DNA from: Blastococcus tunisiensis
GTDB lineage: Bacteria > Actinomycetota > Actinomycetes > Mycobacteriales > Geodermatophilaceae
Assembly: GCF_900112815.1 (NCBI RefSeq)
Contig: NZ_FOND01000001.1
Span: forward strand, 1 to 64,000
Reading direction: 5' to 3'
Length of the DNA: 64,000 bases
Part shown: piece by piece, positions 1 through 5,975 of the stretch
How positions within the stretch are numbered: the stretch's first letter is position 1
Layout of the letters: the number at the start of each line of letters is the position of its first letter
Notes under the pieces: generated by a model
What the model saw: the letters and a program-made list of their open reading frames with translations, nothing else
What the model was told of the DNA's origin: nothing
Database searches by the model: none
Position numbers and translations under genes: made by a program

Positions 1-1383
1 GGTGCCGGCATCGGCGGGGGGTTGCGGTCTCGGGAGCAGGCCCAGGGCGTAGGCCAGTTCCCGGACCAGCGCCGCCGGGACGGGCTGGCCGTCGACCTCC
101 CCGGGCTCATCGCCCCCGGCGAGGGTGCCGGCGGAGGCCACGATGGTCAGGTGCGCCTGCACCGGTGGCCGGCCGGCGGCGTCGGGGCGCAGCAGCAGAT
201 CGACCAGGCAGTCCAGCATCCGCTGGTCGGTGCTGCGCTCGTCGCCGGGGAAGGTGCACTCCCGCGCGTACTGGCGCAGCACCCCCTCGCACGCCCGCAG
301 CACCGGCAGCGGCATCGACGCCGACAGGGTGCCCATGCCGTCCTTGTCCGGATAGGCCCGCACCGCCCGGCGCTTGATGGCCGCGGCCAGCCGCCGGACC
401 GCCGCCGAGGCGTCCGCGCGCAGCACCGCCCGCTGCGCGGAGACCCGCAGCTGCCCGACCGTGCGCCCGCCGGCCCCGGCCAGCAGCCGGGCCTCCACCG
501 ACGCCCGCAGCGCGTCGTCGGTGAGCAGGGACAGCTCGTGGGCCAGCATCCGGGCGTGCGCCCAGGAGATGGTGCCGGCCTCCACCGCGGCCACGGTGGC
601 CGGGAACTGCTCCACCAGCACCACCGACTCGCCCAGCAGCGTCGACGCCGCCCGCGAGGACAGCGCCAGGGCCACCATCACCTCGTCCACCGCCCACTCG
701 CTGACCCCGGTCAGCGCCGCCGGTCGGGCCGCCCGCGACGCCGCGGCCGCCGCCCCCACCTCCCCGTCGGGGCGGTCCATCGCCGCCGCCGGCCGGGCCG
801 CGGCGAACGCCGCCAGCGCCCGCGCCTGCCGCGCCGCCTGCCGGCCCTGCGCCCGGTAGGCCGCCCCCGCCTCGGCCAGGTGCGCGGCCCCGGCCTCCAG
901 CAGCCCGGCCAGCGCCGCGCACTCCGGCTCCACCTGCGCCCCGCCCGGATCGGCCGCGCCCACCTCGCCGGCGCCAGCGGCGGCCGCGCCGACCTCGGCA
1001 GCATCGGCGGCGCCCGCCTCGACCGCGCCCGCATCGGCCGACCCAGCGTCGGACTCAGCCGCCTCGGCCGCGCCCGCATCGGCCGATCCAGCGTCGGACT
1101 CGTCCGCAGCAGGGGTGCCCACCGGAGCGCCCGACTCCGGTTCGGCACCGGCTGCGGTGTCCTGCCCGGCCGCCGAGGGCTGCGGTTCGGTCGCGGCAGC
1201 GGCGGACTCCAGGGACGCCCTCATCGCCGGGCGGGAGATGTGCGGGGAGAAGCTGTCGAGCAGCACCCGCCGCCGCGGCGCGTACGACTCCGCGGGCGCC
1301 GACCGGCCGGCCAGCGTGGCGCGCAGCAACGCCTCGAGGACCGAGGGCCGGTCCTCCACGCTCAGCCGCGACTGATCGAACAT
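1..1383 (-). CDS. DUF222 (13E12-type) protein, 3' end outside window
   Basis: The minus-strand frame is open from the ATG at 1383 to the window edge: 461 codons with no stop. The first 75 residues (MFDQSRLSVEDRPSVLEALL onward) are followed by an Ala/Glu/Asp-rich spacer at about 85-150. The spacer holds a duplicated ESDAGSADAGA unit. From about residue 215 comes a DUF222-like helical region with motifs such as WAVDEVMVALAL, TISWAHARMLAHEL and DKDGMGTL. Proteins of this family usually end in an HNH nuclease domain, which would lie beyond the edge and cannot be seen. The family is multicopy in actinobacteria; nuclease activity is inferred from relatives. The start is supported by an upstream TGGTCA-N17-TATCCT promoter placing the transcript start at or next to the ATG. 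The next gene (1625-2953) runs the same way and is separated by a strong hairpin. Confidence 0.85.
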   Translation of the reverse strand, partial: MFDQSRLSVEDRPSVLEALLRATLAGRSAPAESYAPRRRVLLDSFSPHISRPAMRASLESAAAATEPQPSAAGQDTAAGAEPESGAPVGTPAADESDAGSADAGAAEAAESDAGSADAGAVEAGAADAAEVGAAAAGAGEVGAADPGGAQVEPECAALAGLLEAGAAHLAEAGAAYRAQGRQAARQARALAAFAAARPAAAMDRPDGEVGAAAAASRAARPAALTGVSEWAVDEVMVALALSSRAASTLLGESVVLVEQFPATVAAVEAGTISWAHARMLAHELSLLTDDALRASVEARLLAGAGGRTVGQLRVSAQRAVLRADASAAVRRLAAAIKRRAVRAYPDKDGMGTLSASMPLPVLRACEGVLRQYARECTFPGDERSTDQRMLDCLVDLLLRPDAAGRPPVQAHLTIVASAGTLAGGDEPGEVDGQPVPAALVRELAYALGLLPRPQPPADAGT

Positions 1384-1396: not shown

Positions 1397-1552
1397 TCCA
1401 CTCCGCACCGATCTGACCAGCGGGAATCCCGACTGTGGACACACGGGTCAGCTGTGGACGGCCGACCGCCTCAGATCGGGGCGACCGCCGACCATCGCAC
1501 CGTGACCTCGCCGTGCCGCCCCCTCGCCCCTACCCCCGCCCCCACGACAGCA

Positions 1553-1588
1553 CAGTGGCCCGGCACCGTGATCGGTGCCGGGCCACTG
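1553..1588 (-). terminator. Intrinsic terminator after the solute-binding protein gene
   Basis: A perfect 16-bp inverted repeat (1553-1568 with 1573-1588) has a TGAT loop (read on the plus strand). It starts 36 nt after the stop codon at 1625. There is no U-tract, as is common for actinobacterial terminators. It also insulates the DUF222 gene downstream. Confidence 0.8.
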
Positions 1589-1624
1589 CGATGGTTCACC
1601 GGGTCGGGGACCCGGGGAACGGGA

Positions 1625-2953
1625 TCAGCGCTGCGGGCCGATGCCGTTCTGGTTGAGCCCCTCGATGATCCGCGAGGACTCCTCGAACCCGATGACCACG
1701 ATGGCGTCGGGGTTGAAGTCCACCATCTCCTGGACCTCGGAGTCGAAGTTCGCGGCCTGGGGGTCGTAGGTGATGCTCTGGATCGCGTCCTCCGACAGAC
1801 CGGCGTCCATCAGGTTCTGCACCGTGTTCTCCGCGAGGCCCGTGCCGTACGGGTCGTTCAGGGCCAGGATGCCGACGGTGTTGTTGCCGTCCTCGATGAT
1901 CAGGTCGGCCAGCGCCCGAGCCTGCAGCGTGTCCGGCGGCGCCGTGCGGAAGTACAGGTTGTTGTCGTTGTACGTCGTGAACTGGTCCGACGTGTTCGCG
2001 GGCGAGATCTGCATGACGCCGGCCTGCGTGATGGCGTCGATGACGGTGAGGCTCACGCCCGAGGACGCCGCGCCGACGATCGCGTCGACACCGCTCTGCA
2101 GCAGCCGGTCGACCGTCTGGGTGGCGGTGTCGGTCGAGGCGTCACCGGAGTCACCCTCGATCAGCTGCACCGGCTGGCCGAGGACCCCGCCGGCGGCGTT
2201 GATGTCCTGGACGGCCAGAGCCGCACCCGCGACCTCCGGGGGGCCGAGGAAGGCCAGGTTGCCGGTCAGCGGCAGCAGCGTGCCGATCACCAGCGGGTCA
2301 CCCGTGGCGCCGGCGGGCGCCGGAGCCGGGCCCTCGTCGGTGGCGGCGTTGTCCTCGTCACCGGCGATGACGAACGAGGTGAGCTCGTCGTCGAGGGTGT
2401 TGTCGTCACCGAACTGCAGGAGACCGAAGCTCGCCTCCGCGGGCTCGCCCGGGTCGGCGAAGCTCAGCGGACCCGAAGCACCGTCGTAGTCGACGTTGCC
2501 GCCGGCGTCGAGGATCTCCTTGCACGACGCGAAGTCGGTGCAGGTGTCGCCGCCGAAGGTGAGGCCGTTGACGTACTCCTTGAAGACGTTGGCTTCCGTG
2601 CTGCCGGCGGCCTGGGCGGCCAGCGCCGTCAGGATCACCGCGTCGTACGTCTCACCGGCGTAGTTGTAGTCCTGCAGATCGGGGTCGATCTCGAGGAGAC
2701 GGTTCTTGAAGTCGTCGGAGAGGTCGGTGAGCGGCGTGGTGCCCTTCATCCCGGCCAGTGCGCCTTCTTCGGAGAAGTCCTCGCCGAGGGCGTTACCCAT
2801 GTTGCCGTCGGTGCCGTAGACGTTGACCTGCTTCTCACCGCTGTCGGCGCCGGCGTCGGTGCTGCCCTCGTCATCGCTACCGCCACAGGCGGTGATGGCG
2901 AGGAGGGCGGCACCGGTGACGGCGATGCTGCGGGCAGTGGTGCCAGTGCGCAT
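1625..2953 (-). CDS. Lipoprotein solute-binding protein, circularly permuted branched-chain-amino-acid (LivJ) type
   Basis: 442 aa. The signal peptide ends in lipobox ITAC, with acylated Cys23. The order of the mature part is unusual. Residues 43-196 (VNVYGTDGNMGNALGEDF, then YDAVILTALAAQAA, SGPLSF, ASFGLLQF) correspond to the C-terminal part of LivJ/LivK-type binding proteins. A Pro/Ala linker follows at about 197-218. Residues 219-442 (DPLVIGTLLPLTGN, DINAAGGVLGQPV, ending GLNQNGIGPQR) correspond to the usual N-terminal part. In unpermuted relatives GIGPQ-type sequence would lead straight into VYGTDGN. So the chain looks cut in the second lobe and rejoined through the natural ends. The start is ATG 2953 with GGGAG 7 nt upstream; a TTG three bases earlier is too close to that site. 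No permease or ATPase gene is adjacent, so this is an orphan. A ligand such as an amino acid or amide is likely but unproven. Confidence 0.85.
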   Translation of the reverse strand: MRTGTTARSIAVTGAALLAITACGGSDDEGSTDAGADSGEKQVNVYGTDGNMGNALGEDFSEEGALAGMKGTTPLTDLSDDFKNRLLEIDPDLQDYNYAGETYDAVILTALAAQAAGSTEANVFKEYVNGLTFGGDTCTDFASCKEILDAGGNVDYDGASGPLSFADPGEPAEASFGLLQFGDDNTLDDELTSFVIAGDEDNAATDEGPAPAPAGATGDPLVIGTLLPLTGNLAFLGPPEVAGAALAVQDINAAGGVLGQPVQLIEGDSGDASTDTATQTVDRLLQSGVDAIVGAASSGVSLTVIDAITQAGVMQISPANTSDQFTTYNDNNLYFRTAPPDTLQARALADLIIEDGNNTVGILALNDPYGTGLAENTVQNLMDAGLSEDAIQSITYDPQAANFDSEVQEMVDFNPDAIVVIGFEESSRIIEGLNQNGIGPQR

Positions 2954-3014
2954 CAAGGAACTCCCAGTGTCATCGTTCTCTGCGTTCCGATGGGCGATCC
3001 ACGAGCCGGAACCG

Positions 3015-3208: not shown

Positions 3209-3832
3209 TCAGACGGTCGGGTCCTCCGCCGCGGTGCCCGGCAGGGCACCGGCCGGGAGCCCGGCATCCACGATCGCCTGGGCGAGGGCCTTCATCGAGG
3301 TGCGCTGGTTCATCGCGGTCTGCTGGATCCAGCGGAACGCCTCAGCCTCGGTGAGGGACTGCTCGGCCATGAGCAGCCCCTTCGCCTTCTCCACCACCTT
3401 CCGGGTCTCCAGCCGCTCCTCCAGCGTGCGGACCTCGCCGTCGAGCGCCGTCATCTCGGCGAACCGGGCGCGCGCGACCTCGATCGCCGGAACCAGGTCG
3501 TTCTTCGAGAACGGCTTCACCAGGTAGGCCATGGCACCGGCGTCACGGGCCCGCTCGACGAGCTCCCGCTGGCTGAACGCGGTCAGCACGATCACCGGGG
3601 CGACCCGGGCGGCAGCGATCTGCTCGGCCGCGGACAACCCGTCCAGCACCGGCATCTGGATGTCGAGGATGACCAGGTCGGGGCGGAGCTCGGTCGCGCG
3701 GTCCACGGCCTGCTGGCCGTCGCCCACTTCCGCGACGACGGAGTAGCCCTCCTCCTCCAGCATCTCCTTCAGGTCCAGGCGGATGAGCGCCTCGTCCTCG
3801 GCGATGATGACCCGGATCGTCTCGCTGCTCAC
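3209..3832 (-). CDS. pdtaR: ANTAR-domain response regulator (PdtaR type)
   Basis: 207 aa. The N-terminal receiver domain has the acidic pocket at E12/D13, phospho-acceptor Asp57 (ILDIQMP), Thr84 (VLTAF) and Lys106 (VKPF). A coiled linker leads to an ANTAR RNA-binding domain at about 127-190 (RKVVEKAKGLLM, EAFRWIQQTAMNQR). Family knowledge: ANTAR regulators bind paired stem-loops in nascent mRNA and block terminators; mycobacterial PdtaR pairs with histidine kinase PdtaS. No kinase gene is next to it here, which is usual for this regulator. Neither do I see a clear dual-hexaloop target nearby. The start is GTG 3832, with TAGGCT 6 nt upstream and no Shine-Dalgarno, so the transcript is probably leaderless. 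It is divergent from the tRNA gene at 3905. The same regulator-tRNA pairing appears near Rv1626 as I recall it. Confidence 0.9.
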   Translation of the reverse strand: MSSETIRVIIAEDEALIRLDLKEMLEEEGYSVVAEVGDGQQAVDRATELRPDLVILDIQMPVLDGLSAAEQIAAARVAPVIVLTAFSQRELVERARDAGAMAYLVKPFSKNDLVPAIEVARARFAEMTALDGEVRTLEERLETRKVVEKAKGLLMAEQSLTEAEAFRWIQQTAMNQRTSMKALAQAIVDAGLPAGALPGTAAEDPTV

Positions 3833-3838
3833 GGCGGC

Positions 3839-3844
3839 AGCCTA
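3839..3844 (-). promoter_or_regulatory. -10 hexamer of pdtaR, probably leaderless
   Basis: TAGGCT lies exactly 6 nt before the GTG start at 3832 on the minus strand. The intervening bases (GCCGCC) hold no ribosome-binding site. Confidence 0.55.
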
Positions 3845-3904
3845 TCCAGGCCGGCCCACCGGCACCTCACCGCTAGGCTGCTGCGGCGGCCGGGTGACCG
3901 GCGA

Positions 3905-3978
3905 GCCCCCGTACCCCAATCGGCAGAGGGAGCGGATTCAAAACCCGCGCAGTGTGCGTTCGAGTCGCACCGGGGGCA
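3905..3978 (+). tRNA. Atypical tRNA with CAA anticodon (tRNA-Leu by anticodon)
   Basis: 74 nt. A perfect 7-bp acceptor stem pairs 3905-3911 (GCCCCCG) with 3971-3977. The discriminator is A3978 and no CCA is encoded. The T-arm is perfect (3954-3958 with 3966-3970, loop TTCGAGT). The anticodon loop TTCAAAA (3937-3943) reads CAA at 3939-3941, for Leu codon TTG. Two features are odd. The variable region is only 5 nt (3949-3953), although bacterial leucine tRNAs carry a long variable arm. The anticodon stem closes with an A3936-C3944 mismatch, and the D stem is imperfect. I recall a similar short Leu(CAA) tRNA beside pdtaR in mycobacteria, which would make it conserved rather than decayed. Confidence 0.85.
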
Positions 3979-3990
3979 CTCCGCGATCTT

Positions 3991-4008
3991 GTCGTCCTGC
4001 CGGACGAC
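3991..4008 (+). terminator. Hairpin after the tRNA gene
   Basis: A 7-bp perfect stem (GTCGTCC / GGACGAC) with a TGCC loop begins 13 nt after the tRNA 3' end. It is a likely terminator or processing signal. The rest of the stretch to 4181 has no gene I can support. Confidence 0.5.
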
Positions 4009-4181
4009 GACCGCCTCCACGTGCCGTCCCCACCTGCGTCGAGCCGTTCCCCGCGCTACCTCGGGGAGCCTCCGGCCCCCGCTCGGCAGCTTGCCTCGCA
4101 GGGCGGCTCGCGTTCCAGCGCCTTCGTCCTGCCGCCGCCTCGCTCGTCGGGGACCCCTCGGGCCCCGCTCCTCGCGGGCAA

Positions 4182-4187
4182 TACTGT
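4182..4187 (+). promoter_or_regulatory. -10 hexamer of the decarboxylase gene, probably leaderless
   Basis: TACTGT ends 6 nt before the GTG at 4194, and no Shine-Dalgarno intervenes. This supports GTG 4194 over the in-frame ATG at 4215. Confidence 0.55.
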
Positions 4188-4193
4188 GATCTG

Positions 4194-5975
4194 GTGACCG
4201 AGCCCGTTCCGCACATGACCCCCGAGCAGTTCCGGCAGCACGGCCACGAGGTGGTCGACTGGATCGCCGACTACTGGTCGCGGGTGGGCGATCTCCCGGT
4301 CCGCTCGCAGGTGTCCCCCGGCGACGTCCGCGCGACCCTGCCGGCGCAGGCGCCGGAGCAGGGCGAGCCTTTCTCCGCCGTCCTCGCCGACCTCGACCGC
4401 GTCGTCCTCCCGGGGACGACGCACTGGCAGCACCCCGGCTTCTTCGGCTACTTCCCCGCCAACACCTCAGGCCCCTCCGTGCTCGGCGACCTGGTGTCCG
4501 CCGGTCTCGGCGTCCAGGGCATGTCGTGGGTGACGAGCCCGGCGGCGACCGAGGTCGAGCAGCACGTCATGGACTGGTTCGCCGAGCTCCTCGGCCTGCC
4601 GTCCTCCTTCCGCTCCACCAGCACCGGCGGGGGCGTCGTCCAGGACTCCAGCTCCGGTGCGAACCTGGTCGCCCTGCTGGCGGCGCTGCACCGGACCAGC
4701 ACCGGTGCCACCGTCCGGCACGGCGTCGACCCCGACCGCGCCACCGTCTACGTCTCCGCGGAGACCCACTCCTCCATGGAGAAGGCGGTACGCATCGCCG
4801 GGCTCGGCAGCGACGCCGTCCGCATCGTCGAGGTCGACGCGGACCTGGCCATGCGACCCGCCGCGCTGGCCGCCCGGCTCGAGCGGGACGTCGCCCGCGG
4901 CTACACCCCGGTGCTGGTCTGCGCGACGGTCGGGACGACGTCGACGACGGCGATCGACCCGCTGGCCGAACTGGGGCCGATCTGCCAGAAGTACGGCGTC
5001 TGGCTGCACGTGGACGCCGCCTACGCGGGCGTGAGCGCGATCGTGCCCGAGCTTCGCGAGCTGCAGGCCGGCGTCGAGTGGGCCGACAGCTACACCACCG
5101 ACGCCCACAAGTGGCTGCTCACCGGGTTCGACGCCACCCTGTTCTGGGTCGCCGACCGCGCGGCGCTCACCGGGGCGCTGGCCATCCTCCCCGAGTACCT
5201 CCGCAACGCGGCCACCGACGCCGGCTCGGTCGTGGACCTCCGCGACTGGCAGATCCCCCTCGGGCGCCGCTTCCGGGCGCTCAAGCTCTGGTTCGTGCTC
5301 CGCTGGTACGGCGCCGAGGGCCTGCGCGCCCACATCCGCTCGCACGTCGCCATGGCCCAGCAGCTGGCCGGGTGGGCCGGCGCCGACGAGCGCTTCGACG
5401 TCGTCGCACCGCACCCCTTCTCGCTGGTCTGCCTGCGGCCGCGCTGGTCGGCCGAGGTGGACGCCGACGTCGCGACCATGACCCTGCTGGAACGCCTCAA
5501 CGACGGCGGCGAGGTCTTCCTCACGCACACCACCGTCGGCGGCCGGGCGGTGCTGCGGGTCGCCGTCGGCGCCCCGGCGACCACGCCGGCCCACGTCGAG
5601 CGGGTGTGGGCGCTGCTGCGCGAGAACCACGACTTCCTGGCGACCGACTTCGCGGCGGCGGCAGCCGAGCGGGAAGCCCAGCGGGCGGCGGAGCGGGCGG
5701 CGGCAGAGCAGGCCGCAGTCGAGCGGGCGGCAGCCGAGCAGGCAGCGGCAGAGCAGGCCGCAGTCGAGCGGGCGACAGCCGAGCAGGCAGCGGCAGAGCA
5801 GGCCGCAGCCGAGCAGCCAGCCGCCGAGCAGGCACCAGCCGAGCAGGCAGCGGCAGACCGGGCCGCAGCCGAGCAGGCACCAGCCGAGCAGGCAGCGGCA
5901 GACCGGGCCGCAGCCGAGCAGACGGCAGCGGAGGACGCCGGCGAGGAGTCCGTCAGTCCTTCAACGACCGGATGA
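4194..5975 (+). CDS. PLP-dependent group II amino acid decarboxylase with Ala-rich repetitive C-terminal tail
   Basis: 593 aa. The first 485 residues form an aromatic-L-amino-acid-decarboxylase-like fold (Pyridoxal_deC). It has an N-terminal dimer segment (HMTPEQFRQHGHEVVDWIADY), the HPGFFGYFPA substrate-pocket motif, ETHSSMEKA, the cofactor-binding LHVDAAYAG Asp and the Schiff-base lysine in TTDAHKWLLTGFD. Tyr, Trp, DOPA or related amino acids are plausible substrates; the exact one cannot be read from sequence. From about residue 487 to 585 the protein carries about 100 residues of AAEQA/AADRA/AAVER pentads absent from ordinary family members. This tail is highly charged, probably helical, and encoded by tandem DNA repeats. 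It is transcribed alone; its stop overlaps the convergent tesB end by 23 bp. The start is GTG 4194, chosen from the promoter spacing. Confidence 0.85.
   Translation: MTEPVPHMTPEQFRQHGHEVVDWIADYWSRVGDLPVRSQVSPGDVRATLPAQAPEQGEPFSAVLADLDRVVLPGTTHWQHPGFFGYFPANTSGPSVLGDLVSAGLGVQGMSWVTSPAATEVEQHVMDWFAELLGLPSSFRSTSTGGGVVQDSSSGANLVALLAALHRTSTGATVRHGVDPDRATVYVSAETHSSMEKAVRIAGLGSDAVRIVEVDADLAMRPAALAARLERDVARGYTPVLVCATVGTTSTTAIDPLAELGPICQKYGVWLHVDAAYAGVSAIVPELRELQAGVEWADSYTTDAHKWLLTGFDATLFWVADRAALTGALAILPEYLRNAATDAGSVVDLRDWQIPLGRRFRALKLWFVLRWYGAEGLRAHIRSHVAMAQQLAGWAGADERFDVVAPHPFSLVCLRPRWSAEVDADVATMTLLERLNDGGEVFLTHTTVGGRAVLRVAVGAPATTPAHVERVWALLRENHDFLATDFAAAAAEREAQRAAERAAAEQAAVERAAAEQAAAEQAAVERATAEQAAAEQAAAEQPAAEQAPAEQAAADRAAAEQAPAEQAAADRAAAEQTAAEDAGEESVSPSTTG
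5653..5940 (+). repeat. Coding tandem repeat (AAEQA-type pentads)
   Basis: Repeated 15-nt units encode pentapeptides such as AAEQA, AADRA and AAVER. A 45-nt block at 5834-5878 is repeated at 5879-5923 with one mismatch. This points to recent slippage or unequal exchange inside the reading frame, with the frame preserved. Confidence 0.8.

Follow-up and report, generated by a model that had tools for sequence, protein, structure and literature searches.

Can a gene present the two parts of a familiar substrate-binding fold in reversed order and still serve a transporter? The question is raised by a locus within a window of 64,000 nucleotides from Blastococcus tunisiensis (family Geodermatophilaceae; contig NZ_FOND01000001.1, positions 1 to 64,000), where an open frame of 442 codons on the minus strand (1,625–2,953; start ATG at 2,953–2,951, stop at 1,627–1,625) encodes a 442 aa substrate-binding lipoprotein according to Pfam, BLASTP and profile matches. 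The initial annotation, made from the letters alone, placed the gene correctly and described its product as a LivJ-type binding protein with exchanged halves, and this description holds: a single lipoprotein signal is followed by both parts of the ordinary fold in the opposite of their usual sequence, with a linker between them. The usual C-terminal part now comes first (residues 43–196, complement of 2,366–2,827, columns ~216–369 of a profile built from conventional relatives). It is followed by the linker (residues 197–218, complement of 2,300–2,365), consisting of the old C-terminal tail and then a Pro/Ala-rich stretch as annotated, and by the usual N-terminal part, now last (residues 219–442, complement of 1,628–2,299, columns 2–220). 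We conclude that the product is very probably a working binding lipoprotein of the branched-chain/hydrophobic amino-acid type, belonging to a LivHMGF ATP-binding cassette (ABC) importer and circularly permuted in place.

The reversed order is seen in profile matches. Pfam Peripla_BP_6 covers only residues 221–440 (positions 2–217 of 343; 127.6 bits, cut-off 31.7), and residues 43–200 submitted alone match the end of ANF_receptor (226–350 of 353, E-value = 2.4e-5) with 24.0 bits, just under the cut-off of 25.4. The Peripla_BP_6 match of a conventional relative (L165) is collinear (2–314); in the window protein co-linearity with the whole Peripla_BP_6 or HAAT profile is absent, as the two parts cross. 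The conventional profile has 375 columns and was built from 62 conventional relatives, all of which match it in one piece. Of 79 distinct permuted proteins run against it, the 68 inspected, which lie outside L001–L036, each give two crossing pieces, and 25 further permuted proteins also cross (among them L192, from the same contig as L088). Two forms can be told apart. In the early-cut form the first piece runs from columns 214–220 to 363–372 and the second from 1–3 to 217–221; in the late-cut form the first runs from 228–241 to 366–373 and the second from 1–3 to 239–242, so that the late cut falls ~21 residues beyond the early one. The window protein in its native order scores 178.5 and 345.2 bits in crossing pieces, and after rotation in silico it gives a single match of 536.9 bits over columns 2–369. 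Likewise, for every one of the 62 conventional relatives, rotation improves the best single BLASTP alignment over that of the native order, by at least 53 bits and by a median of 104 bits, which answers the alignment check proposed with the annotation. In conventional relatives the first segment reaches a Y.xDGN segment within a few residues, and this junction is the point where the window protein ends (GLNQNGIGPQR) and begins (VYGTDGN, from residue 45), as had been read from the sequence. In the alignment with the structure 3ipc the cut falls near residue 220, a position in lobe 2, where the annotation had also placed the new ends. A PDB sequence search with the whole protein found bacterial Leu/Ile/Val-type binding proteins as best matches, from about residue 221 onward and with their first 200–220 residues, and the same search with residues 43–200 alone found no relative (best E-value 0.2, unrelated aminopeptidases). 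A sequence search with the conventional L165 returned no sequences at 1e-20 and 15 at 1e-6. The rows of a structural aligner cover mainly residues 217–442; a program that preserves sequence order would be expected to miss the first part, and its lack there speaks neither for nor against the permutation.

The gene belongs to a conserved class and is not a single odd gene. In the window's family, where the annotation had suggested a search for orthologues, 95 of 112 genomes match at E-values up to 1e-40, and 92 of these (12 of them single-contig) are collinear with the window protein over both parts; G066, G067 and G073 gave partial rows. These counts were made by eye. The named loci come mostly from Blastococcus, Geodermatophilus, Modestobacter and Klenkia, and one record is labelled Bacillus and ‘unverified’. 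The ratio of non-synonymous to synonymous substitutions (pN/pS) is 0.26–0.37 over the whole gene in five orthologue pairs, which denotes purifying selection. A misjoin during assembly could in principle have exchanged the halves, and the window contig does break 1.6 kb from the gene, within a DUF222 gene; the break, however, does not touch the gene or its frame, and the same order in 92 genomes, including the 12 single-contig ones, leaves this explanation with practically no credence. In all, permuted order was counted in ~280 genomes from seven families of the Actinomycetota (f1, f13, f16, f30, f43, f84 and f126), with two cut positions; the cut was read directly in fetched loci, and elsewhere permuted order is deduced from a collinear match. 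The early-cut form is present in one of five f13 genomes (60% identity) and, in f16, a family of the window's own order, in 99 of 150 genomes (39–50% identity), which come from 29 of the 44 genera. The late-cut form was counted by eye in 83 of 221 genomes of f43 (Acidimicrobiia), in five of which the match stops short at one end; this family includes the Ilumatobacteraceae contig of L088 and L192. It was also found in two of 35 f30 genomes and, when L128 was searched against 395 genomes drawn from the whole class, in three f84 genomes and one f126 genome besides f43. One locus (L203, G957:C22:9700-14300) holds a tandem pair of late-cut permuted genes, 41–42% identical to the window protein.

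Concerning the genomic setting, 51 named loci were compared (L037–L087: 50 from the window's family and L086, the f13 contig). A livF gene faces the permuted gene from downstream in 48 of them, and in 49 an ANTAR response regulator, encoded on the same strand, stands upstream (Pfam on L038 and on the window, where it lies at 3,209–3,832, minus strand). The loci missing from these counts are three short contigs (L079, L084, L085) and L054, which has a 4 kb flank without livF. Conventional genes are established in the same neighbourhood in Nocardioidaceae (L103, L104) and in members of the window's order (L165–L171), and the permuted gene therefore occupies the place of its relatives' conventional gene, facing livFGMH. 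In the window's own genome livFGMH is on another contig, at its start (C25:538-4608). The window contig (C28) begins in the DUF222 gene, which occupies window positions 1–1,383 on the minus strand and runs off the contig start. The start of C25 (L220) reads by eye as an HNH-like stretch, for which no Pfam match was obtained in the frame submitted. Our guess is that a single repeat gene split the assembly between the two contigs and so parted the binding-protein gene from livF.

Ligand-contact positions are kept in 42 representatives at profile columns 79, 102, 150, 202 and 228; their identities (S, T, Y, aromatic, acidic) are those of LIVBP. The acidic position, an Asp aligned with D226 of 3ipc via L165, is Asp49 in the window protein (codon at 2,807–2,809, minus strand), 26 residues past the lipidated Cys. 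We infer amino-acid binding and a part in transport for the permuted protein. The permuted chain would close into the same two-lobed fold, and the lobes would clamp an amino acid as usual and deliver it to LivHM. As the new N-terminus belongs to lobe 2 and is near D49, the acidic ligand residue, the membrane tether would pull on lobe 2 instead of lobe 1. It is possible, rather than probable, that the permutation was selected at least three times in one lineage, with cuts flanking the lobe-2 strand that bears the acidic ligand residue, because tethering to lobe 2 or to the hinge in place of lobe 1 would alter docking on LivHM or sampling by it.

The number of origins was addressed with trees. 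In a first tree of 98 rows (LG+F+R5) the permuted forms were already separate; the long-branch rows L091b and L093b were then dropped, and an identity filter reduced the final set to 78 rows, 42 of them permuted and 36 conventional, with the display root chosen at the rows nearest L107, L113 and L115. A free maximum-likelihood (ML) tree and first tests were followed by longer constrained searches and by the same trees under C20. The ML tree places the f30 pair next to the conventional L093 and L100 (bootstrap 99), a position recovered with the usual C-terminal part (94) and, together with L142 and L145, with the usual N-terminal part (90). The f43/f84 clade adjoins a clade of the window's family, f16 and the conventional L132 and L168 (95). 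The approximately unbiased (AU) test rejects a single origin of all permuted forms (p = 0.0038 at first, 0.0058 after longer searches, 0.0043 with C20), which is also the only hypothesis that the Shimodaira-Hasegawa (SH) test rejects (0.0146; 0.0232 with C20). A single origin of the late-cut form is rejected by AU (0.033; 0.012 with C20), and one of the early-cut form is kept (0.38–0.45; 0.41 after longer searches, 0.45 with C20). All permuted forms but f30, taken as one group, are marginal to negative under AU (0.0485; 0.0147 with C20) and kept by SH (0.42, 0.33). We read this as pointing to at least two origins of the permutation within Actinomycetota and more probably to three, the number that applies if reversion is excluded. 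Trees made from each part alone give the permuted groups much the same neighbours, and a chimera of two paralogues was rejected on these grounds; L086 departs from this by joining L164 when the usual N-terminal part is used (bootstrap 70), and many half-tree nodes are weak.

The alternative of a permutation that arose once, was then inherited and transferred, had its cut moved by ~21 residues afterwards and reverted in some lineages draws on the early-cut form as a possible single clade and on the large late-cut clade (f43, f84) grouping next to it; given that both tests reject it (SH below 0.025 each time) and that the f30 pair sides with conventional Acidimicrobiia relatives in the joint and half trees alike, we consider it unlikely. 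As to the route, a tandem duplication with fusion was probably followed by loss of the front of the first copy and of the back of the second. Permutation by duplication is a usual model, and fission and fusion is one of two main models (PMC3320104). In the late-cut L088/L192, L193 and L205 the two pieces overlap by 7–12 profile columns, which might be a remnant of duplication or a mere over-extension of local alignments. In L091 and L093 (~3,350–5,920) two conventional genes stand in tandem beside livFGMH, the upstream copy being divergent, an arrangement that may illustrate the duplicated state. Fission and fusion would have the halves first exist as separate genes and then join in the other order; the match lists, which were not searched specifically for this and would not show it clearly, gave no sign of a genome in which both halves stand free, and we hold this route to be improbable.

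Several observations weigh against a working importer subunit, permuted repeatedly and by duplication. A scan with the conventional profile, covering the 1.5 kb before and the 1.2 kb after 101 permuted genes in the three frames of the coding strand only, detected no remnant of a duplicated copy; nothing but the tandem genes of L203 matched significantly, and the duplication route can therefore only be proposed. SH leaves a single late-cut origin standing (0.064–0.074), which, together with the possibility of reversion, keeps ‘three origins’ from being firm. The predicted packing of the first part is a further doubtful point, as the fold comparison spanned residues 217–442 only. In the window's family 17 of 112 genomes are without a match at 1e-40; 12 of them, searched again at 1e-8, gave only distant matches (23–31% identity) in six and none in six, so that the permuted gene is dispensable in some. 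Finally, liv genes were absent within ~5 kb of the f16 permuted genes in 10 of 10 loci (tblastn at 1e-10; L155–L163 and L180 included), and the f16 genome G312 has an additional conventional copy (L164) beside liv genes elsewhere. These last two facts would suit a protein that has left transport for a role as sensor or decoy; set against the livF gene that faces the permuted one in 48 of the 51 named loci and the livFGMH set in the window's own genome, such a change of role seems rather improbable to us, and we retain the importer subunit as our reading.

The remaining features of the gene agree for the most part with the initial annotation. A Shine-Dalgarno-like GGGAG (2,961–2,965, minus strand) lies 7 nt 5' of the ATG, in agreement with the ribosome-binding site read there, and the frame is open. 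Residues 1–23 (complement of 2,885–2,953) look like an intact signal peptide, with ITAC and its Cys23 fitting the lipobox consensus, and a Gly/Ser/Asp-rich spacer (residues 24–42, complement of 2,828–2,884) leads from Cys23 to the fold. The announced terminator stands in part: a perfect 18-bp hairpin is present 3' of the gene (1,551–1,590, minus strand; 61 nt folded at -44.2 kcal/mol, z -6.2) and is terminator-like, but it has no T run, and a pattern scan listed neither this hairpin nor any promoter. On the plus strand, a pyridoxal-dependent decarboxylase (3,783–5,975, Pfam) carries a long Ala/Glu/Gln repeat tail.

Compared with known systems, the window protein shares with LivJ/LivK-type proteins (Peripla_BP_6, HAAT; 3ipc, 4n0q, 1z15) both fold parts, the ligand-contact positions, the lipoprotein signal and, in its family, the livHMGF partners; it differs in the reversed parts, in new termini in lobe 2 and in a tether that would act on lobe 2. 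In the window protein and four relatives the best Pfam match spans only about half of the protein. Since conventional and permuted forms (parts 31–68% identical) share a neighbourhood and an orientation towards one set of importer genes, and the cut has two positions, it can be asked directly if the tether point makes a difference to transport, and by what steps a functioning gene comes to fix a permutation. The annotation knew of no permuted relative, which stands for the HAAT family in so far as no published account was found in the open-licence PMC literature (subscription papers and preprints being outside this scope), and needs amending for another family. Among the matches listed, the sole natural permuted binding protein is TpMglB-2 (Tp0684), a type I glucose-binding lipoprotein for which its authors proposed Type Ic/Cluster Bc and considered that the permutation might serve membrane tethering (PMC4990184). 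Natural circular permutation of a type I lipoprotein is common to both and is seen here from sequence order with the fold taken from a predicted model. TpMglB-2 is of the glucose-binding MglB family and cut in the N lobe, unlike the window protein with its cut in lobe 2, and its moved segment has only 13% aligned identity to the ordinary one (PMC4990184), compared with 31–59% for the usual C-terminal part and 40–68% for the usual N-terminal part here. No MglB-type homology appears in Pfam at E-values up to 1, which gives only Peripla_BP_6, ANF_receptor, Peripla_BP_5 and a sub-cut-off Fe-ADH. In the laboratory, too, constructs made of permuted pieces from a type I binding protein reportedly fold, although these are not natural genes. 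A permuted HAAT protein has its precedent in TpMglB-2, and the family, the lobe and the cut are different here.
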